Source: Phytophthora colocasiae | Lineage: Eukaryota; Oomycota; Peronosporomycetes; Peronosporales; Peronosporaceae | Direction of reading: 5' to 3' | NCBI GenBank assembly: GCA_018806915.1 | Contig: JAGKQI010000098.1 | Coordinates: 3,782,001 to 3,846,000, forward strand | DNA: 64,000 nt | The notes under the pieces: generated by a model | What the model saw: only the letters and a program-made list of their open reading frames with translations | Told to the model about the DNA's origin: nothing | The model's database searches: none | Made by a program: the position numbers and the translations under genes | Shown: piece after piece, positions 1-64,000 of the stretch | How the letters are laid out: each line of letters begins with the position of its first letter | Position numbering within the stretch: the stretch's first letter is position 1

Positions 1-656
1 AGGCTCTCCAAAGACTCTCGCGAGTTATTGGAGAGGCAGCGGTAGCGACGATGCTTCGTACGCTATCGCTGACAGAGCAACATGGTGTTGCTCTGGGGTA
101 CATTGTTAAGGAGCAACGAGATGTTGCTGCCTCGGTGGCTTCCCCTAAGCCACGCGTGGAGTCGTTGAAACTCCACGTGAGTACCTACACGGGGAAGGAG
201 GACGAGACCCTCCTTCGGTGGCTTGTCGAACTCGACACAGCCGTTGCGCCTCGACGTATTTCGGTCCGATGTCGAAGGTCGCGTTCGCCATGTCATGTCT
301 TGGCGGACGTGCGAGGAGTTGGGCCTATGGGCGCCGACTCTCGGATCCTACGTGCTTCGGCACGTACGAGGTGTTCAAAGAGGAGCTCAAGCTTGCGTTT
401 GAGCCCCCCGAAGAACGAGTTCAGATCGAGAGCGGAGTTTCTCGATCTGCAGCAGGGCAAGGATGATGTTCACACCTTTGCCCAGCGTGCTCGATACTTG
501 GTATCGATCATAGTGGCGAACCCGGTCGACGAGACGAGCCAGGTCGTCACGTTCATGAAGGGACTAAGAGATGGTCCCGTCAAGACGTACCTCTTCCGAG
601 AGTATCCGAATACTCTCAAGGAGGGATCAGCCTTGCAATGCAAGAGGAGTTGGCAC
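1..656 (+). pseudogene. gag: Gypsy-A gag (copy 1, partial)
   Basis: This matches the gag of copy 2 (55097-56083) from about residue 45 onward, including the stretch containing YTGKEDETLLRWL and the region around RSRAEFLDLQQGKDD, which corresponds to the retrotransposon gag/capsid-like domain. The reading frame changes near 258, where bases present in copy 2 (cgatcg region) are altered, and again near 412 and 620. The C-terminal nucleic-acid-binding part is not readable on this strand because the segment that follows is inverted. The start codon is outside the window. Gag would package element RNA; this copy is not functional. Confidence 0.85.
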
Positions 657-826
657 TCGCGTGCATAGTGACCGATGTTACTACACTTGTAACATCGAAC
701 CTTGCTGTTCCTACGCTGCTGTTGACCAGCAGTCGTAGCACTCGAGAGGTCCATAGGTTCCGGACCTCCCGTCTTCGCAACAGGACGCGCCGGCTTCGGC
801 GCATTCGCATGGAGTTTAGCTTGACG
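657..826 (-). other. In-place inversion of the gag zinc-knuckle segment
   Basis: Reading the minus strand here gives the gag C-terminus (PMDLSSATTAGQQQ, then a CCHC knuckle beginning CYKCSNIGHYARE), which in copy 2 is on the plus strand at about 55862-56044. The bases before and after the segment are in normal plus orientation, so about 170 bp have been flipped in place, and about 35 bp between the knuckle and the protease region were lost. In copy 2 the proximal breakpoint lies in a 10-bp-arm palindrome (GGAGTTTAGC and its complement, 55858-55886), which may have promoted the event. Confidence 0.85.
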
Positions 827-1269
827 CCGGTAGGCGCGAGGTGTCCTACTGGTGATGCAGTCCCGCGTGTCGAGCTTGGACACGCGACGATGAGGACTGC
901 TGCCCCCAGCGAGAAGGTTTCTCGCTGTAAGCTGCAAGATGACAAGCCAAATCTTGTCATCCTGAACGTGATGTCGAAGAGAGTCCACTCTCTTCGTGCC
1001 CTAGTGGACTCGGGCGCGTCGAACAACTTTGTTCGACAGGGAAGTCTTCGAAGACTTGACTTCGAAGAGGCCGACACGCCTCGCAGCGTGTTGGAGGTCC
1101 GGTTGGCAACAGGTGCCACCGTGAGGACTGAGAAGCGCGTAGTCCGTGTGCGCTTCTCTTACAAACGAAGGACGTTTGTGGAAGACCTTATCGTCTTGGA
1201 TCTAGACGATAAGTTCGACTTGGTATTAGGCATGCCGTGGCTTGCACGGCATGACCCGGTGATCAACTG
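827..1269 (+). pseudogene. Gypsy-A aspartic protease region (copy 1)
   Basis: A retropepsin-like domain: the active-site motif LVDSGASNNFV is near 1003-1032 and the downstream hydrophobic-glycine motif LVLGMPWL near 1219-1245. This is the usual first domain of Gypsy pol, cleaving the Gag-Pol polyprotein. It ends at TGA (1267-1269), where copy 2 has TGG, so it is truncated by a nonsense change just after the domain. The frameshift signal that should precede it is absent because of the neighbouring inversion and deletion. Confidence 0.85.
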
Positions 1270-2240
1270 AAAGAAGCGTACGCTTCAACAACGCATGCGC
1301 GACAGAGAGCGATGACCCTGTCAGTGCTGCACATGCACCAGGCCGTGCATGTGATACCCCAGTTGAGGCAGCAGCGTCCGCCGCTGCCTCCGATCGCCGC
1401 CGGCGACCATCAACGACTCCGAGAGTCGTTGTGAGAAAATGTGTGTCGACTCAGAAATCTGAGCCGAAGGGTCGCGGTCACATGAGTGATGGTCAGGTGA
1501 ATGTGAATCACCTGACGCATAAACATCTGAATGATGTTTGTCACATGAGTGATGGTCAGGTGAATGCAATTCACCTGAGAGAAGGTAAAATACCGGTATT
1601 ACCGGTATCCTTGGAGGTACTTCAAGCCCCCAAGGGTCGGTGCCGACGACGTCGCGTCAACTCTGGGAGTTGACGAAGCAAATAAAATTCGGGGAACCGA
1701 AATGCGTGCGTCAGCTCTGGGAGCTGACGATACGTGTATAAGCGAACACTCGCTAGCTGCTGAAAGCTAGCGAGAGCACGTCGACTCCGGGAGTCGACGA
1801 TGCGGTTGCTTCATCCGCTCCGGGAGCGGATGGAGGCGCAGCGGTTGCAAACGTCCAGCACCCGAACAACCTGCGTAGCGGCGCTGCACGCGATGAGCGG
1901 TTCTCAAGCCAGGCTTGATATTGCGAGTCAGCAGAAGGAATCCGCTGACGATTGCGATAACGTCCCGTCCAAGGTGAGATGCCTTGGACGTGGAGCACCT
2001 GGAGCCGGGCTCCATGGTAGACCTTCGCGGCGCAAGCTCAGGGAGCTGCGCGAGTCCCAGTCCGTGACTGAGACGGGTGTATCTGCAGTGCAGACACCGA
2101 GTGTCAAGGCGTTGGACGTCTTGACACGTACATACTGCGGTACAGTATCAGAGAATGCGGTTGGAGATTCCGCCGACGAGTGCGTCGGCGTTGACCGCAC
2201 TTCCAACGATGAGTTGGAAGCGCTTCGCGCGAGACTTGTA
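1270..2240 (+). other. Gypsy-A protease-RT linker with repeated hairpin units (copy 1)
   Basis: A low-complexity pol linker without a recognised domain. It contains repeats of the form arm, CTGGG or CCGGG centre, complementary arm, for example GTCAACTC/GAGTTGAC near 1656-1675, GTCAGCTC/GAGCTGAC near 1710 and GTCGACTC/GAGTCGAC near 1780. Read in the pol frame these give S-x-[LP]-G-x-D peptides. The copy 2 equivalent (56560-57830) has more units. Indels have broken the frame in several places. Confidence 0.7.
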
Positions 2241-3400
2241 CGATGGACGCATCGAACAAATTTGCATTCTCTCGGATGTCAAGAGAGTGGATCGCGAGGC
2301 CGAGGAGCTGAAGCAGCTCGTCGTCGATGGGATCACTGATGGTGATGACTCCCTCAGTGCGAAGATCCTCATGCGTGAGAGGGATATCCCTCTCACACTG
2401 GTAAGCTCTTCACGCGGTATGCTTTGGGAGTGGCTCGTAATGCCACAGGGGCTTAAGAATGCCCCTGCAACGTTCAATAGATGCGTGACGCATCTATTGC
2501 GCTCGGTGCGCGACTTCGCACCGAGCTACTTCGACGACGTGTTCGTCCACAGCCGGGCTGTGAACGGGAAGACGGACATTGAGATGCACAAGGCATCTCC
2601 GAAAGCTGCTAGAGCTTATGAGGAAACATAAGCTCTATGTGAACCTGAAGAAGTGTATCTTCGGGGCGAGCGAGATACCCGTGCTGGGGTGTCTCGTGGG
2701 GAAAGACGGCGTGCGCCCTGACCCAGAGAAGGTCAGAGTGATCAATGAATGGCCCACGCCATCCAATGTGAAGGAACTGAGGCAGTTCCTTGGGCTTGCC
2801 ACGTACTTGTGCAAGTACGTGGACAACTATACGGGCAAGATTCGCCCGTTGTCACAGCTTCTTAAGAAAGAAGCTGAGTGGATATGGACGAGCGAGTGCG
2901 AGGATGCATTCGGTGCAGTCAAGCAGGGCTTGACTGAAGCGCCGATCTTGGCCGTGGCGGACCAAGATCGTCCATTCCACGTAGTGTGCGATGCATCCGA
3001 CTTTGCAATCGGATGTGCATTGATGCAACACGATCACGAAGGGCGTGGTCGTGTAGTCTACTATCAATCGCGTTAGCTGAAGCCAGCTGAGCGTAACTAT
3101 CCCGTACATGACAAGGAACTCCTTGCCATGAAGTATGCACTCGCAAAGTTCCGAGTGTATCTACTTGGGAGTAGACCGTTCGTGGTCTATACAGACCACG
3201 CATCTTAAGTCGCCACAGACCACGCATCTTAAGTCGCCGCACATCTCGCAACGTATGGCGAGATGGTTGTCCTTCTTCGCCGAGTTCAACTTCCGGGTGG
3301 AGTACAAACCCGGAAGACTCAAAGTAGTGGCCGACGCGTTATCGCGTCGACCTGACTATGCGGAGACGGTCGACGCCAACGCAGTTGGCGTCGTGAGGAC
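2241..3400 (+). pseudogene. Gypsy-A reverse transcriptase-RNase H (copy 1, internally deleted)
   Basis: The N-terminal half of RT is missing: sequence equivalent to about 57961 is joined to sequence equivalent to about 58421 near base 2366. What remains includes MPQGLKNAPATFNR, the catalytic box read as SYFDDVFVHS (YFDD), the thumb with ELRQFLGLATYL, and an RNase H start (VCDASDFAIGCALM). RNase H is stopped by TAG at 3074-3076 (CAG in copy 2). Near 3199-3240 a 22-bp piece (ccacgcatcttaagtcgcc) is duplicated and replaces the segment seen in copy 2. Confidence 0.88.
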
Positions 3401-3480
3401 AAGTGTGCAGTCGTCAACGTTGATTGACGACGTGAAGGACGCGTATGCAAGGGATGCAGACGCGAAGTGGCTGCTGGAGT

Positions 3481-4712
3481 TCCTCGCAGCCCCTTCCGGC
3501 GTGGCACGTCGGAAGCTAACCCCTCATCTTCGAGCTCGTGCACACCGCTATCGTGTACACGAAGGCCTACTGTTGTACAGTGCAGTAGACGACAATGCGG
3601 ATCGCATTGTCGTTCCGAATGATCATGACCTCCGGTTGAGGATCATGTTCGAGTATCACGATGCCCCCACGGCAGGGCATCCGGGTCGTGAGAAGACATA
3701 CACTCTTCTCACGCGTGACTTCTACTGGCACCACCAGTACAAGTGGGTGCGCAAGTACGTACGTGCTTGCGAAGTTTGTCGACGCATAAAGCCTGCGCGG
3801 TTCTCGCAGGCTCCTCTTCAATCACTACCGACTCCGTCGGAGTGTTGGCAGTCCATGTCCATGGACTTTGTCTTCGCAGCAAGCGGAGGACGGGCATCGT
3901 TGTCTTTGTGGACCGATTCAGCAAGATGGTTCATCTTGCTGCCGTCCCGGCTACTGTTACAGCCGCGCAGACTGCGCGACTGTTTGTTGACATGGTGTTC
4001 AAACACCATGGCGACATTGTGTCGGACCGTGATCCACGCTTCACAGCGCGGTTCTGGCAAGAAGGGTTTACACTTCTTGGTTCACAATTATCAATGTCGA
4101 CTGCGGATCATCCGCAGACGGACGGACAAACCGAACGTGTCAACCGCGTACTGGGTAACACGCTGAAGAGCTACGCTCACTCGTTCCCGCACTGGAGCGA
4201 GTGCTTGCCGATGGCAGAGTTTGCCATCAACAACTCGGTGCATGCCTCGACAGGGCATACACCGTTCTACGTGAATGCCATGAGGCATCCACGGTTGCCG
4301 AGCATGCTCGGTGGGGTAGCTTCCTCCTTAAGTGGGGGAGGATCTACGGTTGCGTCCGAACAACCGCAGGATACAGCTGATTGCAGCACACTATCAGCTG
4401 CGGTGACGCGTGCGACGTCTCGTTCGAGCAGGAACGAGCGCGCGATGTCTGTGCCGGGCACAGACATGAGAGATGATAGCAAGCAGGCAGGGCCTTGCTG
4501 CTGACAAAGGCGACAAGCTGATAGGAGTCAGCTCGAGTGCGCTAGACTTTGTCCAGCGAAGACAAGCCGTCATACGGTTTGTCCAGGATGCTATCGCAGC
4601 TTCTGTCGATCGACAGAAGCTGAACGTTGATAATGTTGGTAGGGGCAACATAAATGAATTTAAAAAGGGTTCATTAGTTTTGTTGGCTATATAAAACCTA
4701 CCTAGACATGCA
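3481..4712 (+). pseudogene. Gypsy-A integrase (copy 1)
   Basis: The HHCC zinc-binding domain is readable (EYHDAPTAGHPGRE to RACEVCRRIKP). The core shows MDFVF with the first Asp and, in another frame, SDRDPRFTARFW with the second Asp and TDGQTERVNRV with the Glu, so the DDE residues are present but not in one frame. A deletion near 3877 removes about 13 bp relative to copy 2, and near 4010 the bases coding MPL are lost. The C-terminal part (SDFGASKLAPRFIGPF) runs into the chromodomain frame at 4713. Confidence 0.85.
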
Positions 4713-5327
4713 GTGTCTGACTTTGGAGCAAGCAAGCTTGCTCCAAGATTCATTGGGCCGTTCAAGGTACTTGAACGGCACAGCAACTTGTACCAGCTGG
4801 ACATACCGTCCAGCATGAGGCTCCACCCGACCTTCTACGTCGGGCGGTTGAAGCCGTACGTGCAGCACGGACTACCTAGGGTTGGTAGTCCGACTGAGGA
4901 GTGCGAGAGGCCTGGAAGGCCTTCTCGAGACCGTCAACGCGATCGGTCAACCAGTTCACTCTCGTCCCGAGACCGGACGAGAGGTTCGAGGCAGTCTGAG
5001 CTGCCTCGCAGACCTCAGCACGGAGAACACGAACCTCCTACTTCAGAGCCGCTATCTCAGCGCTCTGTGTCTGCTCCAGCGCAGCAACTCGATCGTGCAG
5101 GGCACGATCGTCATGGTCATAGCGTTGACCATACGGAGGGAGTATTCCGCAGGATTGTGGAGCGGATCGTGGCTCATAAGAGAACGAACTCTCAAGGGGT
5201 TCGTTTTCGTATTCGTTGGAAAGGATTTCCTCCCCATCGAGATACATGGGAGCCCCGGAACGTCCTGATGGAGGACGTTCCGGAAATGGTGAGGGCGTAC
5301 GAAGCCCACCATAACTTGCAAGAGTAA
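4713..5327 (+). CDS. Gypsy-A integrase C-terminus with chromodomain (copy 1)
   Basis: An open segment of 204 codons that belongs to the 3' end of pol, not an independent gene. It starts in the integrase C-terminal module (RFIGPFKVLERH, HPTFYVGRLKPY), passes through a Ser/Arg/Pro-rich tail and ends with an intact chromodomain (VERIVAHKRT to RIRWKGFPPHRDTWEP). Chromodomains of this class steer integration through histone-tail binding. The last 290 bp are also coding on the opposite strand (antisense ORF, 5038-6382). In copy 2 the chromodomain is cut by CAA to TAA. Confidence 0.85.
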   Translation: MSDFGASKLAPRFIGPFKVLERHSNLYQLDIPSSMRLHPTFYVGRLKPYVQHGLPRVGSPTEECERPGRPSRDRQRDRSTSSLSSRDRTRGSRQSELPRRPQHGEHEPPTSEPLSQRSVSAPAQQLDRAGHDRHGHSVDHTEGVFRRIVERIVAHKRTNSQGVRFRIRWKGFPPHRDTWEPRNVLMEDVPEMVRAYEAHHNLQE

Positions 5328-6382
5328 GCCCTGCACGAGGAGCGCTGCGGTCAGCCACAGTACTCGGAGCTTCGCGTGGCACAATACGACCACGGATCTC
5401 CTTGATGTGATCGGGTACACGGACGACCGTGTACCCCAGGAGATCATTTTCGGAGAGACGTGTTGCCAACCCTTGGCAACACGGGCAGAATGTGCCAAAC
5501 GGAACGGCACATGGGATCCCCGCTTCCATGGACTGATCATGGAGGCGTTCACAGTTACCACGTGTAGTGTAAGTGTAGTAGCGATCGCGAGCCGCAGCAA
5601 CGCGCTCGCGATACGCCTTCGGGTCTTTGTTGAAGTTATCAACAAAGGCGTTCCACGACTGACAAAGTGCCTGCCACTCTGGCACTTTGCTCTTGCGCGA
5701 AGTCTTCTTCGCTGCATAGTATTGGAGCTCATGGAAGAGCCCGATATAGTAGTCGCGTCTTTGAGTCTCGGACTCAAAGACAACCTCGGCGGCGACGTCG
5801 TCGTCATTGATACTGTTGCATGCGTACAACAGTATCGGGTTCGGTGGTGAACTAGCACCGAACCGGTCATGGATTTCTGCCTCAGTAGGCATCCATGGTG
5901 TGCGCACTGGCGGATCAGTGCGCGGGGCACTGAGCGCCCTCGACATGGGGAACGCTTTTGTAATCGCTGCGCGGACGCTTCGAGCTTGAACCGTCCGAGG
6001 CCTCATCACGAGGTCGTCGAGACCTCACGGGTGGGTCTGGTGTGTCTTCGGACGAAGACACGGGAGCGGGAGCCTTGACATCAACCTCCCCCTCTTTGAC
6101 ATCCTCGTCGTAGTCGAGGATGTCTTCGTAGTCCTCTCCAAAGAGTTCTTTGAGAGGAACAGCAGGATTCTTAATCTCTACTAGGAAAGAAGACTTCTTC
6201 TTCTTCCCGTGCTTCTCCTAGTGGAGAGCATGGTATTTGGTGACAGAGAGCTTCTCTGTCGAACCGCTGGAAACAGCAGTGCTAGTGGGCACTGCTGAGG
6301 TTGTTGTTCCTGCTGCAGAGGCAGCAGGGGAGGCTTACGCGTTCGCAGAAGCGGACGGAGACGTGGGCGTTGGCGAGTCCAT
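5038..6382 (-). pseudogene. Gypsy-A antisense ORF (copy 1, broken)
   Basis: This is the same ORF as 60994-62496. The ATG is at 6382-6380 (MDSPTPTS). A TAG near 6222, a 1-bp insertion near 5955 and CAG to TAG at 5038 break it, but the frame from about 5950 down to 5038 is open for more than 300 codons and crosses antisense to the chromodomain. Visible parts: a conserved central block (EIHDRFGASSPPNPILLY to YYTYTTRGNCERLHD, then CAVPFGTFCPCCQ) and a C-terminal coiled-coil stretch (ALHDRVAALEQTQ). I do not recognise its function. Confidence 0.8.
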
Positions 6383-6465
6383 TGCGAAAGGAACTCGGAT
6401 TTCTCTTGGGAACTTGACGGTCTTGTCAAGTTCTGTTGATTGACGTATCGAGACCGATACGTCGA

Positions 6466-6483
6466 ATCTTAACGGGGGGATGG
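6466..6483 (+). other. Polypurine tract of Gypsy-A copy 1
   Basis: AACGGGGGGATGG directly precedes the LTR start TGTAACGG. The identical tract sits before the 3' LTR of copy 2 (62585-62597). This is the expected primer for plus-strand DNA synthesis. Confidence 0.8.
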
Positions 6484-6793
6484 TGTAACGGGGTTACACG
6501 TACAAGTGGTTGTACCACTTGTAACCCTAACAGTTAGGATAACTGTTAGAGGTTGGAAACAGACCTCAGACCTTGGTGTGCTGTACACACCAATGGCTAC
6601 ATGGGCGAATCACATTATTGGGTGGTTCGTGTGCATTTGTGCATATTATTGGTAGAAAGTAACGAATTTCTACCAATCACTGAGCAGAGCCTCTGCTAAC
6701 CACAAGTTGGTAGATCCTTTAGAAATAGATCAAAACAGTTTTAGGAGGTTCATAATTGGCTTATGCCAAATTCAATAACAGTTCTCATTTTAC
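6484..6793 (+). repeat. 3' LTR of Gypsy-A copy 1, first part
   Basis: The first 310 bp of the 460-bp LTR. It is interrupted after CATTTTAC, where Gypsy-B begins TGTCGCG. The last four bases, TTAC (6790-6793), are repeated at 24260-24263 as the target-site duplication. Confidence 0.95.
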
Positions 6794-28084: not shown

Positions 28085-29051
28085 TGAAGACTCCTTGGTT
28101 TTTTTTGAACGCCCGCCCGCTGTGCACTCACGTGCATAGTGACCGATGTTACTACACTTGTAACATCGAACCTTGCTGTTCCTACGCTGCTGTTGACCAG
28201 CAGTCGTAGCACTCGAGAGGTCCATAGGTTCCGGACCTCCCGTCTTCACAACAGGACGCGCCGGCTTCGGCGCGTTCGCATGGAGTTTAGATTGACGCCG
28301 GCTAAACTCCTCTTGCATCGCAAGGCTGATCGCCTCCTCGAGAGTATTCGGATACTCTCGGAAGAGATACGTCTTGACGGGACCATCTCTTAGTCCCTTC
28401 ATGAACGTGACGACTGGCTCGTCTCGTCGACCGGGTTCGCCACTATGATCGATACCAAGTATCGAGCACGCTGGGCAAAGGTGTGAACATCATCCTTGCC
28501 CTGCTGCAGATCGAGAAACTCCGCTCTCGATCTGAACTCGTTCTTCGGGGGGCTCAAACGCAAGCTTGAGCTCCTCTTTGAACACCTCGTACGTGCCGAA
28601 GCACGTAGGATCCGAGAGTCGGCGCCCATAGGCCCAACTCCTCGCACGTCCGCCAAGACATGACATGGCGAACGCGACCTTCGACATCGGACCGACGATA
28701 CGTCGAGGCGCAACGGCTGTGTCGAGTTCGACAAGCCACCGAAGGAGGGTCTCGTCCTCCTTCCCCGTGTAGGTACTCACGTGGAGTTTCAACGACTCCA
28801 CGCGTGGCTTAGGGGAAGCCACCGAGGCAGCAACATCTCGTTGCTCCTTAACAATGTTGCTCTGTCAGCGATAGCGTACGAAGCATCGTCGCTACCGCCG
28901 CCTCTCCAATGACTTGCGAAAGTCTTTGGAGAGCCTCCCACTCTGGATCAGACAGGTGGGCGCAGTCCGTGCGCGTCACGGACATTTGAGGGGTCCCAGC
29001 AGATCCCTCATCCATTGGGGAGTTCTCTACCCCGCGTTCGTATGACTCCAT
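28085..29051 (-). pseudogene. gag: Gypsy-A gag (copy 3)
   Basis: It starts at ATG 29051 (MESYERGVENSPMDE). A deletion near 28860 removes about 16 bp after TEQH and shifts the frame. Later frames show the capsid-like region and, at the end, the CCHC knuckle CYKCSNIGHYAREC. A frame change occurs again near 28400. Truncated before protease. Confidence 0.88.
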
Positions 29052-29100
29052 ACGAACGAACAGCAGTCGGTCGTGGGACGGACTACAAAGTGCTACCAGG

Positions 29101-29560
29101 TGTAATAGGTCTACTTAGACCTATTAGGTGGCGTACACGTGCGCTTACGTGTATGAGGAAGCGTGCAATTAGAATAGACTTAATTTAAGTATACTTATTT
29201 AAATAAGTATAATTAAATCAAATATAACTAAATTAAACTGCAAAATACCGTAAAATGAGAACTGTTATTGAATTTGGCATAAACCAATTATGGACCTCCT
29301 AAAAATGTTTGTTATCTATTTCTAAAGGGTCTGCCAACGTGTGGTTGGCAGAAACTCTGCTCAGTGATTGGTAGAAATCCGTTACTTTCTACCAATAATA
29401 TGCACAAATGCAGACGAACCACCCAATAATGTGGTTCGCCCATGTAGCCATTGGTGTGTACAGCACACCAAGGTCTGAGGTCCGTTTCCAACCTCTAACA
29501 GTTATCCTAACTGTTAGAGTTACAAGTGGTACAACCACTTGTACGTGTAACCCCGTTACA
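29101..29560 (-). repeat. Gypsy-A copy 3 LTR (460 bp)
   Basis: On the plus strand it runs from TGTAATAGG to CCCCGTTACA, the same length as the LTRs of copy 2. The base just inside starts the primer-binding site (TGGTAGCAC on the minus strand). Confidence 0.93.
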
Positions 29561-54309: not shown

Positions 54310-54587
54310 CCTCATACTGTACCCTACTGATGTCCAAGCGCTGCTGAGGCGTGTGTGGCTAGTGGCCGCCCCTCATACTGTATCCAGCTGACGTCCAAGC
54401 GCCGCTGTGGTGTGTGTGGCTAGTGGCCGCCCCTCATATTAAATCTTGCAGACGTCCAAGCGCTGCTGAGGCGTGTGTGGCTAGTGGCCGCCCCTCATAT
54501 TGAGCGTGTAATATCGAACGGACAAGAATCATGTAGGCGTGTGTAGGTAGTATCTAGCTTGCATTCAAGAATCATGTAGGCGTGTGT
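54309..54587. repeat. Minisatellite between piggyBac copies, up to the Gypsy-A insertion
   Basis: Three units of about 60 bp with core GCGTGTGTGGCTAGTGGCCG and the spacer GACGTCCAAGCG, then sequence matching 51328-51418 base for base apart from two changes. It ends TGTGT (54583-54587), the left target duplication. Confidence 0.85.
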
Positions 54588-55047
54588 TGTAACGGGGTTA
54601 CACGTACAAGTGGTAGTACCACTTGTAACTCTAACAGTTAGGATAACTGCTAGAGGTTGGAAATGGGCCTCAGACCTTGGTGTGCTGTACACACCAATGG
54701 CTACATGGGCGAACCACATTATTGGGTGGTTCGTGTGCATTTGTGCATATTATTGGTAGAAAGTAACGGATTTCTACCAATCACTGAGCAGAGTTTCTGC
54801 CAACCACACGTTGGCAGACCCTTTAGAAAAAGATAACAAACAGTTTTAGGAGGTCCATAATTGGCTTATGCCAAATTCAATAACAGTTCTCATTTTACGG
54901 TATTTTGCAGTTTAAATTAGTTATATTTGATTTAATTATACTTATTTAAATAAATATACTTAAATTAAGTCTATTCTAATTGTACGCTTCCTCATACACG
55001 TAAGCGCATGTGTACGCCACCTAATAGGTCTAGGTAGACCCATTACA
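54588..55047 (+). repeat. Gypsy-A copy 2 5' LTR
   Basis: TGTAACGG to CCCATTACA. Rich in perfect hairpins, for example TACAAGTGGT/ACCACTTGTA (54605-54627), TTGGTGTG/CACACCAA (54677-54697), ATTGGTAGAAA/TTTCTACCAAT (54752-54781) and TCTGCCAAC/GTTGGCAGA (54796-54818). Confidence 0.95.
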
Positions 55048-55049
55048 CC

Positions 55050-55067
55050 TGGTAGCACTTTGTAGTC
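55050..55067 (+). other. Gypsy-A primer-binding site
   Basis: TGGTAGCACTTTG begins two bases after the LTR; it is also present in copy 3. A tRNA ending in CCA, possibly initiator-Met-like, is implied but not verified. Confidence 0.65.
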
Positions 55068-55096
55068 CGTCCCACGACCGACTGCAGTTCGTTCGT

Positions 55097-56083
55097 ATGG
55101 AGTCATACGAACGCGGGGTCGAGAACTCCCCAATGGATCAGGGATCCACTGGGACCCCACACATGTCCGTGACGCGCACGGACTGTGCCCACCTGTCGGA
55201 CCCAGAGTGGGAGGCTCTCCAAAGACTTTCACAAGTCATTGGAGAGGCGGCGGTAGCGACGATGCTTCGTACGCTATCGCCAACAGAGCAACATGGTGTT
55301 GCTCTGGGGTACATTGTGAAGGAGCAACGAGATGTTGCTGCCTCGGTGGCTTCTCCGAAGCCACGCGTGGAGTCGATGAAACTCCACGTGAGTACCTACA
55401 CGGGGAAGGAGGACGAGACCCTCCTTCGTTGGCTTGTCGAACTTGACACAGCCGTTGCGGCTCGACGTATCGTCGATCCGATGTCGAAGGTCGCGTTCGC
55501 CATGTCATGTCTTGGCGGACGTGCGAGGAGTTGGGCCTATGGGCGCCGACTCTCGGATCCTACGTGCTTCAGCACGAACGAGGAGTTCAAGGAAGAACTC
55601 AAGCTTGCGTTTGAGCCTCCGAAGAACGAGTTCAGATCGAGAGCGGAGTTTCTCGATCTGCAGCAGGGCAAGGATGATGTTCACACCTTTGCCCAGCGTG
55701 CTCGATACTTGGTATCGAACATAGTGGCCAACCCGATCGACGAGGCGACCAAGGTCGTCACGTTCATGAAGGGACTAAGAGACGGTCCCGTCAAAACATA
55801 TCTCTTCCGAGAGTATCCGAATACTCTCGAGGAGGCGATCAGCCTTGCGATGCAAGAGGAGTTTAGCCGACGTCAAGCTAAACTCCATGCGAACGCGCCG
55901 AAGCCGGCGCGTCCTGTTGCGAAGACGGGAGGTCCGGAACCTATGGACCTCTCGAGTGCTACGACTGCTGGTCAACAGCAGCGTAAGAACGTCAAGGTTC
56001 GATGTTACCTGTGTGGTCACATCGGTCACTATGCACGCAAGTGCACAGCGGGCGGGCGTTCAAAAAACGCCAAGGACCAGTAG
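55097..56083 (+). CDS. gag: Gypsy-A gag, intact (328 aa)
   Basis: ATG 55097 (MESYERGVENS) to TAG 56081-56083. A leader (about 1-85), a capsid-like gag domain (about 85-240: YTGKEDETLLRWL, AMSCLGGRARSWAYG, FKEELKLAFEPP, VVTFMKGLRDGP) and a C-terminal CCHC knuckle CYLCGHIGHYARKC (C-x2-C-x4-H-x4-C), followed by a Ser/Lys tail. It binds and packages element RNA. The last codons contain the A AAA AAC slip site, so Gag-Pol is expected by -1 frameshifting. This is the only intact structural gene of the Gypsy-A copies here. Confidence 0.93.
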   Translation: MESYERGVENSPMDQGSTGTPHMSVTRTDCAHLSDPEWEALQRLSQVIGEAAVATMLRTLSPTEQHGVALGYIVKEQRDVAASVASPKPRVESMKLHVSTYTGKEDETLLRWLVELDTAVAARRIVDPMSKVAFAMSCLGGRARSWAYGRRLSDPTCFSTNEEFKEELKLAFEPPKNEFRSRAEFLDLQQGKDDVHTFAQRARYLVSNIVANPIDEATKVVTFMKGLRDGPVKTYLFREYPNTLEEAISLAMQEEFSRRQAKLHANAPKPARPVAKTGGPEPMDLSSATTAGQQQRKNVKVRCYLCGHIGHYARKCTAGGRSKNAKDQ

Positions 56084-56103
56084 GCGCGGGGCGTCCTACT
56101 GGT
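56062..56103 (+). promoter_or_regulatory. Predicted -1 ribosomal frameshift signal, Gypsy-A gag-pol
   Basis: The heptamer A AAA AAC (56062-56068) is aligned X XXY YYZ in the gag frame (TCA AAA AAC). A 7-nt spacer precedes a perfect 9-bp stem, ACCAGTAGG (56076-56084) with CCTACTGGT (56095-56103) and a 10-nt loop. The gag stop lies in the stem. The -1 frame is open into protease. Confidence 0.85.
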
Positions 56104-59100
56104 GATGCAGTCTCGCGTGTCGAACTCGGACACGCGACGTTGAAGGCTGCTGCCCCCAGCGAGAAGATTTCTCGCTGCGAGATGCAAGATGACAAGCCAG
56201 GCCTTGTCATCCTGAACGTGATGTCGAAGAGAGTGAACTCTCTTCGTGCCCTAGTGGACTCGGGCGCGTCGAACAACTTTGTTCGACAGGGAAGTCTTCG
56301 AAGGCTTGACTTCGAAGAGACCGACACGCCTCGCGGCGTGTTGGAGGTGCAGCCGCAACAGGTGCCACCGTAAGGAGTGAGAAGCGCGTGGTCCGTGTGC
56401 GCTTCTCTTACAAACGAAGGACGTTTGTAGAGGATCTTATCGTCTTGGATCTAGACGATACGTTCGACTTGGTATTAGGCATGCCGTGGCTTGCACGGCA
56501 TGACCCGGTGATCAACTGGGAGAAGCGTACACTCGTACGCTTCAACAACACATGCACGACAGAGAGCGATGGCCCTGTCAGTGCTGCACATGCACCGGCC
56601 GGTGCATGTGGATCCCCAGTTGAGGCAGCAGCGGCCGCCGCTGCCTCCGATCGCCGCCGGCGACCATCAACGACTCAGGGAGTCGTTGTGAGAAAATGTG
56701 TGTCGACTCAGAAATCTGAGCCGAAGGGTCGCGGTCACACATGAGTGATGGTCAGGTGAATATGAATCACCTGACGCATAAACATCTGAATGATTTTTGT
56801 CACATGAGTGATGGTCAGGTGAATGAGATCCACCTGAGAGAAGGTAACATACCGGTATTACCGGTATCCTTGGAGGTACTTCAAGCCTCCAAGGGTCGCG
56901 CCGACGACGTCGCGTCGACTCTGGGAGTTGACGAAGTAAATAATATTCGGGGAACCGAAAGGCGTGCGTCAGCTCTGGGAGCTGACGCCACTGGCGCGTC
57001 GCTGCTAGTTCTGGGAACTAGCGATCGTGCATCAGCTCCGGGAGCTGATGATGCGTGTACAGGCGAACATTCGCTGCTAGTTCCGGGAACTAGCGATCGT
57101 GCGTCAGCTCTGGGAGCTGACAATACGTGTACAAGCGAACACTCGCTAGCGCAGGAAGCTAGCGAGAGCACGTCGACTCCGGGAGTCGACGATGCGGTTG
57201 CTTCATCCGTAGTAGCGGGTGAAGTTGCTCCATCCGTAGGAGCGGATGGAGGCGCAGCGGTTCAGGGAACCGACTGCGCGGCAGGAGGTGCTGGCGGTTG
57301 CAAACGCCCAGCACCAGAAAAACCTGCGTGCTCACGTGCAGCGGTGCTGCACGCGATGAGCGGCACAAGCCGTGCTTGAATGTGCGAGTCAGCGGAAGGA
57401 ATCCGCTGACGATGGCGATAAAGTCCTGTCCAAGGTGGGATGCCTTGGACGTGGAGCGCCTGGAGCTGAGCTCCATGGCAGACCTTCGCGGCGCAAGCTC
57501 AGGGAGCTTTGCGAGTCCCAGTCCATGACTGTGGAGGGTGTGTCCGCGGTGCAGACACCGAGTGTCAAGGCGTTGAACGTCTTGACACGAACTGATACTG
57601 CGTTACAGTATCAGAGCGCGCGGCACCAGCTCAGTGAGCTGTGTGAGTCTCAGTCCGTGACTGAGGAGGGTGTATCTGCAGGGCAGACACCGAGTGTCGA
57701 GACGTTGAACGTCTTGACACGTACTGGTACTGGGTTACAGTACCAGAGGATTCGGTTGGAGAATCCGCCGACGAGTGCGTCGGCGTTGACCGCACTTTCA
57801 ACGATGAGTTGGAAGCGCTTCGCACGAGACTTGTACGATGAACGCATCGAACAAATTTGCATTCTCTCGGATATCGAGAGAGTGGATCGCGAAGCCGAGG
57901 AGCTGAAGCAGCTCGTCGTCGATGGCATCACTGAGGGCGATGACCCCCTCAGTGCAAAGACCAAGAAGCAACGCTTCGAGGAGCAGAGTTGGGACTCGTT
58001 GAAGTCGAGCCCCTATTACGAGATTCTGCGGGAGTACAAGGATGTACTCCCGGACGAGATTCCTTCGGAGCTTCCGAAGGACAAGGGCGTACAGCACGAG
58101 ATTGATCTCGTGCCGGGCACGAAGTACTGTGTTACACGGCAGTGGCCACTGCCGCGTGAACAAGTTCAAGCGATCGACGACATCTTTGAAAGTCGTCGCC
58201 TTGCAGGTCAAGTGCGGGAATCAAAGTCCCCGCACAGTGCCCCAACGTTCTGTGTTAAGAAACCACAGGGCGGCTGGCGCATCGTTCATGCGTACAACAA
58301 GTTGAACGATGCGACGATACCGGCGCAGACGCCGATACCGCGAAAAGATGTTATCATCGATTCGATGGCCTTGAGCACTATCTTCAGTGCTCTAGATCTG
58401 CGTGATGGATTCTATCAGATCCTCATGCGTGAGAGGGACATCCCTCTCACAGCGGTATGCACTCCAAGCGGTATGCTTTGGGAGTGGCTCGTAATGCCAC
58501 AGGGGCTTAAGAATGCCCCTGCAACGTTCAATAGATGCGTCACGCATCTATTTGCACTCGGTGCGCGACTTCGCACCGAGTTACTTCGACGACGTGTTCG
58601 TCCACAGCCGGGCTGTGAACGGGAAGACGGACATTGAGATGCACAAGGTGCATCTCCGGAAGCTGCTAGAGCTTATGAGGAAACATAAGCTCTATGCGAA
58701 CCTGAAGAAGTGTATCTTCGGGGCGAGCGAGATACCCGTGCTGGGGTGTCTCGTGGGGAAAGACGGCGTGCGCCCTGACCCAGAGAAGGTCAGAGTGATC
58801 AATGAATGGCCCACGCCATCCAATGTGAAGGAACTGAGGCAGTTCCTTGGGCTTGCCACGTACTTGTGCAAGTACGTGGAGAACTATGCGGGCAAGATTC
58901 GCCCGTTGTCACAGCTTCTTAAGAAAGAAGCTGAGTGGATTTGGACGACCGAGTGCGAGAAGGCATTCGGTGCAGTCAAGCAGGGCTTGACTGAAGCGCC
59001 GATCTTGGCCGTGGCGGACCAAGATCGTCCATTCCACGTAGTGTGCGATGCATCCGACTTTGCAATCGGATGTGCATTGATGCAACACGATCACGAAGAG

Positions 59101-61310
59101 CGTGATCGTGTAGTTTATTATCAATCGCGTCAGCTGAAGCCAGCTGAGCGTAACTATCCCGTACATGACACGGAGCTCCTTGCCATGAAGTATGCACTCG
59201 CAAAGTTCCGAGTGTATCTACTTGGGAGTAGACCGTTCGTGGTCTATACAGACCACGCATCATTGCGTACGGCGATTAAGTCGCCGCACATCTCGCAACG
59301 TATGGCGAGATGGTTGTCCTTCTTCGCGGAGTACAACTTCCGGGTGGAGTACAAACCCGGAAGACTCAATGTAGTGGCCGACGCGTTATCGCGTCGACCT
59401 GACTATGCGGAGACGGTCGACGCCAACGCTGTTGGCGTCGTGAGGACAAGTGTGCCGTCGTCAACGTTGACTGACGACGTGAAGAACGCCCGCGTAATGC
59501 AAGGGATGCAGACGCGAAGGGGCTGCTGGAGTTCCTCGCAGCACCTTCCGACGTGGCACGTCGGAAGCTAACCCCTCATCTTCGAGCTCGTGTACACCGC
59601 TATCGTGTACACGAAGGCCTACTGTTGTACAGTGCAGTAGACGACAATGCGGATCGCATTGTCGTTCCGAATGATCATGACCTCCGGTTGAGGATCATGT
59701 TCGAGTATCACGATGCCCCCACGGCAGGGCATCCGGGTCGTGAGAAGACATACACTCTTCTCACGCGTGACTTCTACTGGCACCACCAGTACAAGTGGGT
59801 GCGCAAGTACGTACGTGCTTGCGAGGTTTGTCAACGCGTGAAGCCTGCGCAGTTCTCGCAGGCTCCTCTTCAATCACTACCGACTCCGTCGGAGTGTTGG
59901 CAGTCCATGTCCATGGACTTTGTCTTCGGTCTTCCGCCTGACAGCAAGCGGAGGACGGGCATCGTTGTCTTTGTGGACCGATTCAGCAAGATGGTTCATC
60001 TTGCTGCCGTCCCGGCTACGGTTACAGCCGCGCAGACTGCGCGACTGTTTGTTGACATGGTGTTCAAACATCATGGCATGCCGCTCGACATTGTGTCGGA
60101 CCGTGATCTACGCTTCACAGCGCGGTTCTGGCAAGAAGTGTTTACACTTCTTGGTTCACAATTATCAATGTCGACTGCGGATCATCCGCAGACGGACGGA
60201 CAGACCGAACGTGTCAACCGTGTACTGGGTGACACGTTGAAGAGCTACGCTCACTCGTTCCCGCATTGGAGCGAGTGCTTGCCGATAACAGAGTTTGCCA
60301 TCAACAACTCGGTGCATGCCTCGACAGGGCATACACCGTTCTACGTGAACGCCATGAGGCATCCACGATTGCCGAGCATGCTCGGCGGGGTAGCTTCCTC
60401 CTTAAGTGGGGGAGGATCTACGGTTGCGTCCGAACAACCGCAGAATGCAACTGATAGCAGCACACTATCAGCTGCGGTGACGCGTACGACGTCTCGTTCG
60501 AGCAGGAACGAGCGCGCGATGTCTGTGCCGGGCACAGACATGAGAGATGATAGCGAGCAGGCAGGGCCTGCTGCTGACAAGGGCGACAAGCTGAAAGGAT
60601 TCAGCTCGGGTGCGCTAGACTTTGTCCAGCGAAGACAAGCCGTCATACGGTTTGTCCAGGATGCTATCGCAGCTTCTGTCGATCGACAGAAGCTGAACGC
60701 TGATACTGTTGGTAGAGGCAACACAAATGAATTCGAAAAGGGTTCATTAGTTTTGTTAGCTACACAAAACCTACCTAGACATGCAGTGTCTGACTTTGGA
60801 GCAAGCAAACTTGCTCCAAGATTCATTGGGCCGTTCAAAGTACTTGAACGGCACGGCAACGCGTACCGGCTGGACATACCGTCCAGCATGAGGCTCCACC
60901 CGACCTTCTACGTCGGGCGGTTGAAGCCGTACGTGCAGCACGGACTACCTAGGGTTGGTAGTCCGACTGAGGAGTGCGAGAGGCCTGGAAGGCCTACTCA
61001 AGACCGTCGACACGGTCGACCAACCGGTTCACTCTCGTCCCGAGACCGGACGAGAGGTTCGAGGCAGTCTGAGCTGCCTCACAGACCTCAGCACGGAGGA
61101 CACGAACCTCCTGCTTCAGAGCCGCTATCTCAGCGCTCTGTGACTGCTCCAGCGCAGCAACTCGATCATGCAGGGCACGATCGTCATGGTCATAGCGGTG
61201 ACCATGCGGAGGGAGTGTTCCCACCCCCTCCGCCGCCGTTGCGCGACGCGCGTGGAGCGATCCGCTGGATTGTTGAGCGGATCGTGGCTCATAAGAGAAC
61301 GAACTTTTAA
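56069..61310 (+). pseudogene. pol: Gypsy-A pol (copy 2): PR, RT, RH, INT, broken chromodomain
   Basis: Protease LVDSGASNNFV (about 56254-56280) and LVLGMPWL. RT from about 57950 with VKKPQGGWRIVHAYN, SALDLRDGFYQI, MPQGLKNAPATFNR and YFDD in SYFDDVFVHS. RNase H has VCDASDFAIGCALM, TELLAMKYAL and TDHASLRTAI. Integrase has an HHCC finger, MDFVFGLP, IVSDRDLRFT and TDGQTERVNRV, so D, D and E are present. Frame breaks near 56355 (1-bp loss), 56736 (2-bp gain), 57375, 58552 (1-bp gain) and 59490. The chromodomain ends after HKRTNF at TAA (61308-61310; CAA in copy 1). Not functional, though most breaks are single. Confidence 0.92.
56900..57260 (+). repeat. Hairpin-unit array in the Gypsy-A pol linker
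   Basis: At least eight units with different stems but the same CTGGG/CCGGG-type centre, for example GTCAGCTC/GAGCTGAC, GCTAGTTC/GAACTAGC (twice), CATCAGCTC/GAGCTGATG and GTCGACTC/GAGTCGAC. The peptides read SALGAD, LVLGTSD, SAPGADD, LVPGTSD and STPGVDD. No known domain. Confidence 0.8.
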
Positions 61311-62496
61311 GGGGTTCGTTTTCGTATTCGTTGGAGAGGATTTCCTCCCCATCGAGATACATGGGAGCCGCGGAACGTCCTGATGGAGGACGTTACGGAA
61401 ATGGTGAGGGCGTACGAAGCCCACCATAACTTGCAGGGGTAAACCCTGCACGAGGATTGCTGCGGTCAGCCACAGCACTCGGAGCTCCACGTGGCTCGAG
61501 ACGACCACGAAGCCCCTTGATGTGATCGGGTACACGGACAACCGTGTACCCCAGAAGATCACTTTCTGAGAGGCGTGTTGCCAAGGGTTGGCAACACGGG
61601 CAGGGTGTGCCAAAGGGAACGGCACATGGGATCCCCGCTTCCATGGACTGATCATGGAGGCGTTCACACTTACCACGTGTAGTGTAAGTGTAGTAGCGAT
61701 CGCGAGCCGCAGCAACGCGATCGCGATATGCCTTCGGGTCTTTGTTGAAGTTTTCAACAATGGCGTTCCACGACTGACAAAGTGCCTGCCACTCTGGCAC
61801 TTTGCTCTTGCGCGAAGTATTCTTCGCTGCATAGTATCGGAGCTCGTGGAAGAGCCCGATATAGTAGTCGCGTCTTTGAGTCTCAGACTCAAAGACAAGC
61901 TTAGCGGCGACATCGTCGTCGTTGATACTGTTGCATGAGTACAACAGTATCGGGTTCGGTGGTGAACTAGCACCGAACCGGTCATGGATTTCTGCCTCAG
62001 TAGGCATCCATGGTGTGCGCACTGGCGGATCAGTGCGCGGGGCAGTGAGCGCCCTCGACATGGGGGACGCTTCATCATCACTGCGCGGACGCTTCGAGCT
62101 TGAAGCATCCGAGGCCTCATCACGAGGTCGTCGAGATCCCACGGGTGGGTCTGACGTGTCTTCAGACGAAGACACGGGAGCGGGAGCCTTGACATCAACC
62201 TCCCCCTCCTCGACATCCTCCTCGTAGTCGAGGATGTCTTCGTAGTCCTCTCCAAAGAGTTCTTTGAGAGGGACAGCAGGATTCTTAATCTCTGCTAGAG
62301 AAGAAGACTTCTTCTTCTTCTCATGCTTCTCCTTATGGAGAGCATGGTACTTGGTGACAGAGAGCTTCTCTGTCGGACCGCTGGAAGCAGCAGTGCTAGT
62401 GAGTACTGCTGAGGTCGTTGTTCCTGCTGCAGAGGCAGCAGGTGAGGCTTGCGCGTCCGCAGTAGCGGACGGAGACGTGGGCGTTGGCGAGTCCAT
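60994..62496 (-). pseudogene. Gypsy-A antisense ORF (copy 2; one nonsense codon)
   Basis: ATG 62496 (MDSPTPTSPSATAD), about 102 bp inside the 3' LTR and opposite to gag-pol. 367 codons run to TAA at 61393-61395 (GAA in copy 1); the frame then continues to 60994, giving about 500 codons in an undamaged version. N-terminal Ala/Ser/Thr-rich part, Lys-rich KHEKKKKSS, acidic LFGEDYEDILDYEEDVEEGE, basic SRRPRDEASDASSSKRPR (likely nuclear signal), a conserved block (EIHDRFGASSPPNPILLY, ETQRRDYYIGLFHEL, PEWQALCQSWNA, CAVPFGTPCPCCQ) and a C-terminal coiled coil (ALKQEVRVLRAEVCEAAQ). The last roughly 320 bp are antisense to the pol C-terminus. Function unknown. Confidence 0.85.
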
Positions 62497-62584
62497 TGCG
62501 AAATGAACTCGGATTTCTCTTGGGAACTTGACGGTCTTGTCAAGTTCTGTTGATTGACGTATCGAGACCGATACGTCGAATCTT

Positions 62585-62597
62585 AACGGGGGGATGG
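62585..62597 (+). other. Polypurine tract of Gypsy-A copy 2
   Basis: AACGGGGGGATGG abuts the 3' LTR start at 62598, as in copy 1. Confidence 0.8.
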
Positions 62598-63057
62598 TGT
62601 AACGGGGTTACACGTACAAGTGGTAGTACCACTTGTAACTCTAACAGTTAGGATAACTGTTAGAGGTTGGAAATGGGCCTCAGACCTTGGTGTGCTGTAC
62701 ACACCAAAGGATACATGGGCGAACCACATTATTGGGTGGTTCGTGTGCATTTGTGCATATTATTGGTAGAAAGTAACTGATTTCTACCAATCACTGAGCA
62801 GAGTTTCTGCCAACCACACGTTGGCAGACCCTTTAGAAAAAGATAACAAACAGTTTTAGGAGGTCCATAATTGGCTTATGCCAAATTCAATAACAGTTCT
62901 CATTTTACGGTATTTAGCAGTTTAAATTAGTTATATTTGATTTAATTATACTTATTTAAATAAGTATACTTAAATTAAGTCTATTCTAATTGCACGCTTC
63001 CTCATACACGTAAGCGCACGTGTACGCCACCTAATAGGTCTAGGTAGACCCATTAAA
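62598..63057 (+). repeat. Gypsy-A copy 2 3' LTR
   Basis: 460 bp, nearly identical to 54588-55047. The terminal CA has become AA (CCCATTAAA). Followed by TGTGT (63058-63062). Confidence 0.95.
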
Positions 63058-64000
63058 TGTGTGGTAAATAGTTGCCGCTCTTCTCGAAAGTGTTGTATCT
63101 CGCGGGCGTCTAGAAGCCGAATAGCAATATCCCCATAATAGGGTACTTATGAGAACCTCCAATACTTGAATTGTTCTTCGGTATAGTTGTAGAGGAGTTG
63201 TTGTGGTATATCAATAAGGAAATTAGTGGCTGGAAACAACAGCGCTGGATTATCCACATAAGTACAGAAGCCAGTTGAGGAGCTAGCCAAAGAGCCATAC
63301 CGCTGCACCTCAAAACGCGGCGATGACCGAAGCTAGGGGAAGCGATCCTCCAACGATGCGAACGAGATCAACAGCGAAGTCACGGAAGGCTTCAGGTAGA
63401 GAGTAAAGAATGAGCAAACCTCCGCCGACTACCGATTCGACATTGGGGGTATTGCAGCCCACAAGCAATGTTGTCGTTACAACCGCGAGAGCAGCAACAC
63501 GCAAAACGAAGAAACGGACGACAAGAACGATGAAGGCTTCTAGTGTGAAGAATTCTGTTGATTTTACAATCCCAAAACCGCGCGAGAATCACCAGGTCTT
63601 GCAGTCCAAATAAAGTTCGTTGCCGTCAAGCACGATATCTAAGTCAGCAGACGTTAGCGCGGCACAACGGTACCCGGTCAGTGGGGTTGATGTGCTTCGA
63701 AGTTCGGCGAAGAAACCGGTAACGACAGCGGAGCCATTTCCAGCAACCGCAAATATAACTCGAGAAATTAGACCTGCAGCTCAATTTGAAGAGGGACTTC
63801 AACAACATCAAGCCAGAAGCCTCATTCAGACAGCTAGCAAAGCCACACCAGAAGTGAATCCGGATGTTGCTATGCCGCTAACAAGTATGACAACTAGCTT
63901 GGCGCTAACAACTCAAAATTGGGGCGTTGATTTCCAGCGAGACGACTTTGAAGGAGGACGACATTGCAACGGGCGAGGGGCCTTAGAGCGTATTTGGGAA
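63058..64000 (+). pseudogene. piggyBac-like locus, copy 2 (runs off the window)
   Basis: Matches 51412-52350 at a constant offset of 11,646, with a handful of substitutions. It shares the TAA of copy 1 (here 63611-63613) and has an extra TAA near 63406 (AAA in copy 1). The start of the transposase N-terminal region is visible; the core lies beyond base 64000. Confidence 0.9.

Follow-up and report, generated by a model that had tools for sequence, protein, structure and literature searches.

Short perfect hairpins tile a Ty3/gypsy retrotransposon of Phytophthora colocasiae from end to end

Why should a retrotransposon with ordinary proteins be written, from one end to the other, in short perfect inverted repeats? 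The question is raised by Gypsy-A, a very abundant long terminal repeat (LTR) retrotransposon whose main copy occupies positions 54585..63055 on the plus strand of a 64,000-nt stretch of Phytophthora colocasiae contig JAGKQI010000098.1 (the "window", to which all coordinates refer). This copy is tiled end to end by 111 hairpins, a hairpin being a perfect inverted repeat with arms of at least 8 bp and a loop of 0-10 nt. An initial annotation of the window had described such a tiling of gag and pol, naming 15 hairpins, and had offered as causes either selection for a folded genomic RNA or template switching that perfects quasi-palindromes. The tiling, retained even at synonymous sites, points to an unrecognised layer of information in the Gypsy-A nucleic acid.

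The excess of hairpins is large by every control. All 15 hairpins named in the initial annotation are real: each arm is found where it had been placed, its exact reverse complement is next to it, and the loops agree wherever a length had been given. Along 55097-61310, 79 hairpins are observed for 1.43 expected from 30 first-order Markov shuffles, and 58 for 0.37 when arms of at least 9 bp are considered. Scaled to 683 bp, this null yields ~0.04 hairpins of the longer class, in agreement with the annotated chance rate of well under 0.1, while the stretch of that length singled out there (58429..59111, plus strand) harbors 11. In 200 synonymous codon shuffles, which keep the protein and the codon counts, the five open reading frame (ORF) pieces hold 2.1 hairpins on average and 6 at most, as compared to 62 in the natural sequence (arms of at least 9 bp: mean 0.8, maximum 4, natural 45). 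This control had been proposed in the annotation together with the claim that codon choice is bent toward stems; the shuffled density lies far below that observed, and the claim holds. Chance, composition, and codon bias are ruled out as the source of the hairpins by the two types of shuffles. Palindromic insertion elements are ruled out as well, since the hairpins of the RNase H stretch align gap-free to homologous codons (among those listed).

Hairpins cover 29.6% of the bases of 54585-63055, with a mean spacing of 76 nt and without strict periodicity (coefficient of variation 0.74). Considered by arm length, the excess is largest for arms of 9 bp, with 44 hairpins for 0.1 expected, and does not extend beyond 13 bp. 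Loops are mostly of 0-10 nt and nearly all of 0-15 nt, those of 0-2 nt being found in 25 of 110 hairpins. Stems begin in all three codon phases.

By its predicted proteins, Gypsy-A is an ordinary Ty3/gypsy element, as the initial annotation had it. Pfam matches in several frames follow the order gag, reverse transcriptase (RT), RNase H, and integrase along 55097-61310. All parts listed here lie on the plus strand. The gag ORF (55097..56083; 9 hairpins) matches Retrotrans_gag and Ty3_capsid, and has a zinc knuckle slightly below the Pfam cut-off. The gag-pol linker (56084..57371) is the part most densely filled, with 26 hairpins in 1288 bp and tandem hairpin-bearing units at 56999-57142; its ORF 56741-57379 has no Pfam match. 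It is followed by the first RT part (57372..58575; 13 hairpins), the RT match changing frame near 58557-58576, by the remaining RT and RNase H (58576..59552; 14 hairpins), and by the integrase (H2C2, rve) with its SH3_Tf2-1 domain (59553..61310; 17 hairpins). The pol ORFs of this copy start at 57372, 58513, and 59553 and occupy different frames, so the copy is frameshifted and hence broken. Between the integrase ORF and the LTR, the 3' part (61311..62594) harbors 19 hairpins, and two minus-strand ORFs tested within it have no Pfam match. The 461-bp LTRs (54585..55045 and 62595..63055) contain 5 and 7 hairpins, respectively, and differ at 9 of 461 positions (98% identity). The tiling described through gag and pol is thus present but is not confined to the coding part, since the LTRs and the 3' region are tiled too. 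Densities rise from 9-11 hairpins per kb in gag, RT, and integrase to 19-21 in the linker: weaker coding constraint goes with denser hairpins, although RNase H, with 14 per kb, departs from this.

Candidates for the primer-binding site (a TGGTAGCA-like stretch following the 5' LTR) and for the polypurine tract (AACGGGGGGA, preceding the 3' LTR) were read by eye. The former presumably corresponds to a tRNA; ARAGORN detects no tRNA in 54000-64000. In the Gypsy-A frames scanned, SH3_Tf2-1 is found and a chromodomain is not, PF00385 being present in some relatives; the only RNase H domains found are RT_RNaseH and RT_RNaseH_2, with no additional plant-related RNase H. The closest relatives of the RT-RNase H protein, 89-91% identical, belong to other Phytophthora (among 120 matches listed of 3508), and the named organisms among these matches are Phytophthora plus one Peronospora. 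Tandem repeats of 72 bp (56999-57142) and of 132 bp (57487-57748) occur inside Gypsy-A. In the former, hairpin arms vary coordinately between units and between copies, as if units exchanged. Immediately upstream of the 5' LTR, a 61-bp unit is repeated three times in tandem (54299-54502).

Two further pieces of the family are present in the window. A second Gypsy-A copy (1..6793, plus strand), cut by the window edge, is equally tiled and mostly 93-95% identical to the main copy, with pieces at 86-91%. A 178-bp stretch of its gag (653-830) is inverted relative to 55867-56044 of the main copy, and one boundary of the inversion coincides with a hairpin. A 5' fragment (about 28092..29560, minus strand), 94% identical, is tiled too.

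Which elements of the genome share this organization? In the 92.5-Mb genome used for locus searches (105 contigs), a 1-kb pol DNA probe returned 819 candidates, 40 of which were scored, at 98-100% identity. The best 30 of these 40 (L009-L038, L009 being the window copy) are therefore close copies. They contain 27-58 hairpins per 4 kb, all 29 further loci being tiled, and another Gypsy-A copy (L067) has 43 hairpins in 3.2 kb. In contrast, 44 loci of other retroelements (L001-L008; L039-L055, L057-L066, and L068; L069-L076) possess 0-5 hairpins each per 2.85-3.75 kb, at chance level or slightly more, and a host-wide process is for that reason unsupported. In the window itself, the pol ORF 13149-18008 and three other ORFs hold 0-2 hairpins, near chance, in keeping with the annotated contrast of Gypsy-A with Gypsy-B and host-like pseudogenes. 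The loci L039-L068 mostly look like one family, that of L045, which is slightly above chance, with most hairpins in L045 and L061. The L045 family also displays an excess of 6-bp stems (z up to 5.1), a weak excess of 8-bp stems, and, for L045, a folding z of about -5.

Ten loci fetched in a search for Gypsy-A relatives (L077-L086) include two sister families, C1 (L077-L081, joined by L056) and C2 (L082-L085), roughly 66-70% identical to Gypsy-A in RNase H protein. Both are tiled more weakly, the 6-10 hairpins found in each 2.4 kb being roughly ten times the chance number or more. Over the RNase H part, the positions of these hairpins, among those listed, largely recur within each family, and none is common with Gypsy-A. 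A different stem length is found in the family of L086, a locus with a single perfect hairpin of arm at least 8 bp. It contains 58 arm-5 hairpins for 19.8 expected (z 10.8) and 21 arm-6 hairpins for 5.5, with loops mostly of 1-6 nt, while the 5-bp z does not exceed 2.4 in all 23 other loci checked. This pattern is not that of decayed 9-bp stems, since near-perfect stems of at least 9 pairs number 2 for 1.1 expected. The L086 family is abundant and young (884 candidates; 39 further scored copies 99% identical), and of its 44 hairpin centres, 38 are found again in at least 5 of the 6 copies compared (L086, L087-L091). The C1, C2, and L086 families are tiled too. The tendency to local hairpins is thus clade-wide and nearly restricted to this clade, each family having its own typical stem length. 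No relative of Gypsy-A was confirmed in viral and other-genome contig collections; the comparison across species is one of proteins.

Once formed, the stems of Gypsy-A are kept. Of 32 hairpin loci in a pol piece, 26 are free of mismatches in 27-31 of the 31 copies compared. Variation at third codon positions, with hairpins defined on the window copy and with window copy 1 and L035 left out, amounts to 0.0071 in stems, as compared to 0.0215 elsewhere and 0.0270 in loops. Within stems, third positions hence vary as little as do first and second positions in the rest of the sequence (0.0083). Shared third-position variants occupy 1.4% of stem sites, as compared to 8.5% of sites elsewhere. When the stem mask is shifted circularly, the observed value for variation or for shared variants is reached in 0 of 1021 shifts. 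C1 behaves alike: 21 of 86 third positions are variable in stems and 294 of 690 elsewhere, with 0 of 783 shifts as low, although the choice of C1 hairpins as those present in at least 2 of 5 copies introduces some ascertainment bias.

The same stems can be followed in 238 related proteins (RT-RNase H and integrase, among the matches listed), which are not mutually independent. Among relatives of at least 75% identity, mostly from other Phytophthora, conservation is higher at stem codons than at the remaining codons for 89 of 107 RT-RNase H proteins and for 51 of 59 integrases. The integrase relatives at 65-75% are mixed (23 of 38), and in the most distant groups the same holds for only 1 of 13 and 1 of 21. 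Amino acids as well as codons thus differ at stems from those of distant relatives. In the simplest reading, stems would have been paid for in amino-acid changes on the branch leading to Gypsy-A, and later held, since stem codons are conserved in close relatives, across Phytophthora, and not in distant ones.

How did the stems arise? A few loops bear the mark of the process. In the hairpin CGACGCCAAC-loop (59418..59440, plus strand), the loop is inverted from GCT to AGC in L025, while L032 and L036 carry TGC, the reverse complement of the minor allele GCA. In the hairpin ACGACAATGCG-loop (59641..59665, plus strand), it is inverted from GAT to ATC in L016, and in a further flipped pair the GCG and CGC alleles are both common. 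The arms around flipped loops are intact. Over the set of hairpin loci examined, only these four 3-nt loop alleles have every base changed relative to the most common allele, and each of them is the exact reverse complement of an allele present, in one case a minor one. Flips of 1-nt loops are indistinguishable from transversions. In coding genes of yeast (PMC8604942) and in RNA genes (PMC8794818), template switching between the arms of inverted repeats is described to yield both inverted spacers and homogenised arms. The flipped 3-nt loops are a template-switching footprint. Near 59456, L032 also shows a cluster of seven differences inside a hairpin, possibly another template switch.

The excess of folding is not that of one strand. 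Per 120 nt, it amounts to -14.1 kcal/mol for the sense strand (z -19.8) and to -15.0 kcal/mol for the antisense strand (z -25.7).

Our favoured explanation, to which we assign an even chance, is that template switching supplies the stems and that purifying selection on Watson-Crick pairing keeps them, single strands collapsing into local hairpins. Switching between arms, most likely during the element's own reverse transcription, would supply stems and flip loops, a step suggested by the loop flips and by the strand symmetry. Purifying selection on Watson-Crick pairing would then retain stems in the replicating lineage. We infer this retention from the synonymous constraint and from the shared stem changes, 28 of which are single and 3 compensatory; by our estimate, homogenisation is too rare for the threefold drop in third-position variation. 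Finally, genomic RNA, antisense RNA, or minus-strand cDNA may fold into local hairpins, and this would be the benefit: folded strands might be poor targets for small-RNA silencing or other single-strand attack, with stems too short for Dicer. In P. infestans, retrotransposons hold most small-RNA loci, mainly of 24-30-nt small RNAs (PMC3804510), which makes such an escape attractive; stems that fold but cannot be diced would then be favoured. Taken on its own, this last step of local folding and escape is a guess, and a doubtful one. The broader proposal, of a clade-wide second, non-protein code, is tentative, and we would not expect all of it to stand. It would consist of a selected array of Watson-Crick hairpins of family-specific stem length (~9 bp in Gypsy-A, 5-6 bp in L086), supplied by template switching and acting on both strands, whose RNA and cDNA would fold and thereby evade the host or replicate better.

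Several observations weigh against the combination of switching and selection. No flip is seen among copies in loops of 4 nt or more. Among 46 distinct multi-base clusters that distinguish copies, the local stem is made longer by 11, made shorter by 23, and left as it is by 12. Those lengthening a stem to arms of at least 7 bp number six, all within the repeat-rich stretch 56645-57616, where exchange between the tandem hairpin-bearing repeats can explain them, and pol shows no multi-base change lengthening a stem to at least 7 bp. For the template-switching cause put forward initially, the flipped loops therefore speak for the process, and the lack of such a gain in pol lends no support to its perfecting stems at present. 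At fixed mismatches whose repair requires a transversion, the pair has formed in 2 copies, as compared to 18 with a different mismatch. Fixed A.C and G.U mismatches pair in 28 and not in 2, a result that any transition would give and that is uninformative. Compensatory changes between copies, a check suggested at the outset, do exist as the 3 shared pairs, but all three lie in tandem repeats, where unit exchange is likely; four apparent compensations in L035 proved to be a deletion artefact. In C2 (four very similar copies), stems show no reduced variability, 345 of 790 shifts giving a value as low, and the reduction in the stems of the L086 5-bp family is borderline (63 of 1142 shifts). As for the benefit, the highest yield of small RNA per Mbp in P. 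infestans comes from inverted and tandem repeats (PMC3804510), which could cut the other way.

Wobble pairs belong to this side of the balance too. G.U tolerance is expected if folded RNA is selected, and inconsistent G.U data count against that. Fixed internal mismatches of Gypsy-A stems are A.C in 16 cases, G.U in 8, and other in 13. Shared stem variants lean in the opposite direction (G.U 14, A.C 6, other 8, besides the 3 compensatory), and singletons show no lean (G.U 35, A.C 34, other 38, compensatory 1). Stem variants are G.U in 9 and A.C in 10 cases in C1, and 3 and 2 in C2, while the fixed mismatches of C1 and C2 together are G.U in 11 and A.C in 3. One stem, at 58556, presents a GC-GT-AT series. 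There is no consistent wobble preference, and the data sets disagree. The equal excess on both strands and this lack of a consistent G.U preference fit poorly with selection on sense RNA only. They leave selection at the DNA level, selection on both strands, or a mutational process at the DNA level.

A purely mutational ratchet is the nearest rival, unlikely in our opinion but far from negligible. The reverse transcription of the clade would switch between arms, perfect quasi-palindromes, and homogenise arms, the hairpins being functionless. The flipped loops fit such a process, as do the strand-symmetric perfection of Watson-Crick pairs with no consistent wobble preference, the lineage-specific hairpin positions, and the stem starts in all three codon phases. 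So do the amino-acid cost at stem codons relative to distant relatives, the 178-bp inversion of copy 1, and the stem-lengthening clusters in the linker. However, homogenisation predicts compensatory changes about as numerous as reverted ones, whereas shared stem changes are 28 single for 3 compensatory, and three are, by estimate, too few for a threefold drop at third positions. Moreover, the transversion-type mismatches stay unrepaired (2 versus 18), stem-shortening clusters outnumber stem-lengthening ones (23 versus 11), and the 5-6 bp tiling of L086 does not derive from decayed longer stems (2 versus 1.1 expected). Alternatively, paired bases may mutate less often.

Classical selection on the structure of the sense RNA, acting through ordinary point mutations as in some RNA viruses, seems improbable. 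The large folding excess (z -19.8), the constrained synonymous stem sites, the lean toward G.U in shared variants (14 versus 6) and in fixed C1 and C2 mismatches (11 versus 3), and the series at 58556 would all be expected of it. Yet the antisense excess is equally large (z -25.7), fixed Gypsy-A mismatches favour A.C, and flipped loops require a cross-strand copying event; in the 25 of 110 loops of 0-2 nt, some of them expected by chance, the innermost pairs are impossible in RNA. What survives of the folded genomic RNA first proposed is thus the synonymous constraint on stems and not the specificity for the sense strand. The selected form might instead be DNA, minus-strand cDNA hairpins or cruciforms serving replication or chromatin, which we regard as a long shot. 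It would account for the strand symmetry and for the excess of fixed A.C (G.T on the minus strand) over G.U, but 16 versus 8 is a small sample, and the sister families show the opposite (G.U 11, A.C 3). There is next to no chance that the tiling is an artefact of base composition, low complexity, repeated palindromic insertions, or assembly error. Dinucleotide and codon shuffles fall far below the observed count, the same hairpins are found in copies on many contigs, and arms differ in sequence, the hairpins of the RNase H stretch aligning without gaps to untiled sister-family codons (among those listed).

The remainder of the window contains other repeats. A pair of hairpins is repeated 15.6 kb apart (7238 and 8340; 22840 and 23942), in regions of about 7238-8369 and 22840-23971, which suggests a large second LTR element. 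Its pol (13149-18008, minus strand), that of the other Gypsy element, possesses an RVT_3 RNase H, as is said of the Chronos and Archon groups. In PMC5348765, an acquired RNase H of the plant-related kind defines two groups of oomycete Ty3/gypsy elements, Chronos, which has a chromodomain, and Archon. Long ORFs that overlap on the two strands between 41000 and 51000 have seemingly spurious Pfam matches (Reo_sigmaC, bL31_N), and a hairpin TTTTTTCG is repeated at 44205, 47046, and 48711; this is probably repetitive sequence. Outside the window, an integrase filed under Aeromonas veronii (P0156), on a 1.2-kb bacterial contig, is 76% identical to that of Gypsy-A and is probably oomycete contamination.

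If the stems are selected, Gypsy-A carries a whole-genome structural code over an ordinary polyprotein, holding synonymous sites and having changed amino acids. A hairpin code on both strands, if true, would be a new genome architecture for LTR retroelements. The many copies, and sister families of different stem length, offer a natural test system for the origin of perfect hairpins, by template switching or by stepwise pairing. They could also show which single-stranded form matters, and whether local structure aids multiplication under small-RNA silencing. For such families, bias would also affect dating, dN/dS, and other methods in which the synonymous sites of transposons are taken as neutral.

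No precedent for a hairpin-tiled LTR element was found in the literature searched by title and abstract opening, mostly outside subscription papers. The genome-scale ordered RNA structure (GORS) of some RNA viruses is a genome-wide folding excess to which synonymous choice is bent. Gypsy-A resembles it by a folding excess over shuffled sequence throughout (sense z -19.8), but differs by its perfect short Watson-Crick stems, small loops, and equality of strands, in a retroelement that integrates as DNA. By gag, RT, RNase H, integrase, SH3_Tf2-1, and LTRs, it resembles the SH3_Tf2-1-bearing Ty3/gypsy retrotransposons of oomycetes; it differs from other Ty3/gypsy elements and retroelements in being wholly tiled, the 44 other loci having 0-5 hairpins. 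Chronos and Archon, as defined in PMC5348765, are likewise oomycete Ty3/gypsy, but the plant-related RNase H that they acquired is absent from the Gypsy-A frames scanned. With the template-switch mutations of PMC8604942 and PMC8794818, Gypsy-A shares perfect arms of at least 7 bp, short spacers, spacer inversion, and amino-acid changes. Those are isolated single events, whereas Gypsy-A gathers ~100 hairpins in one family.

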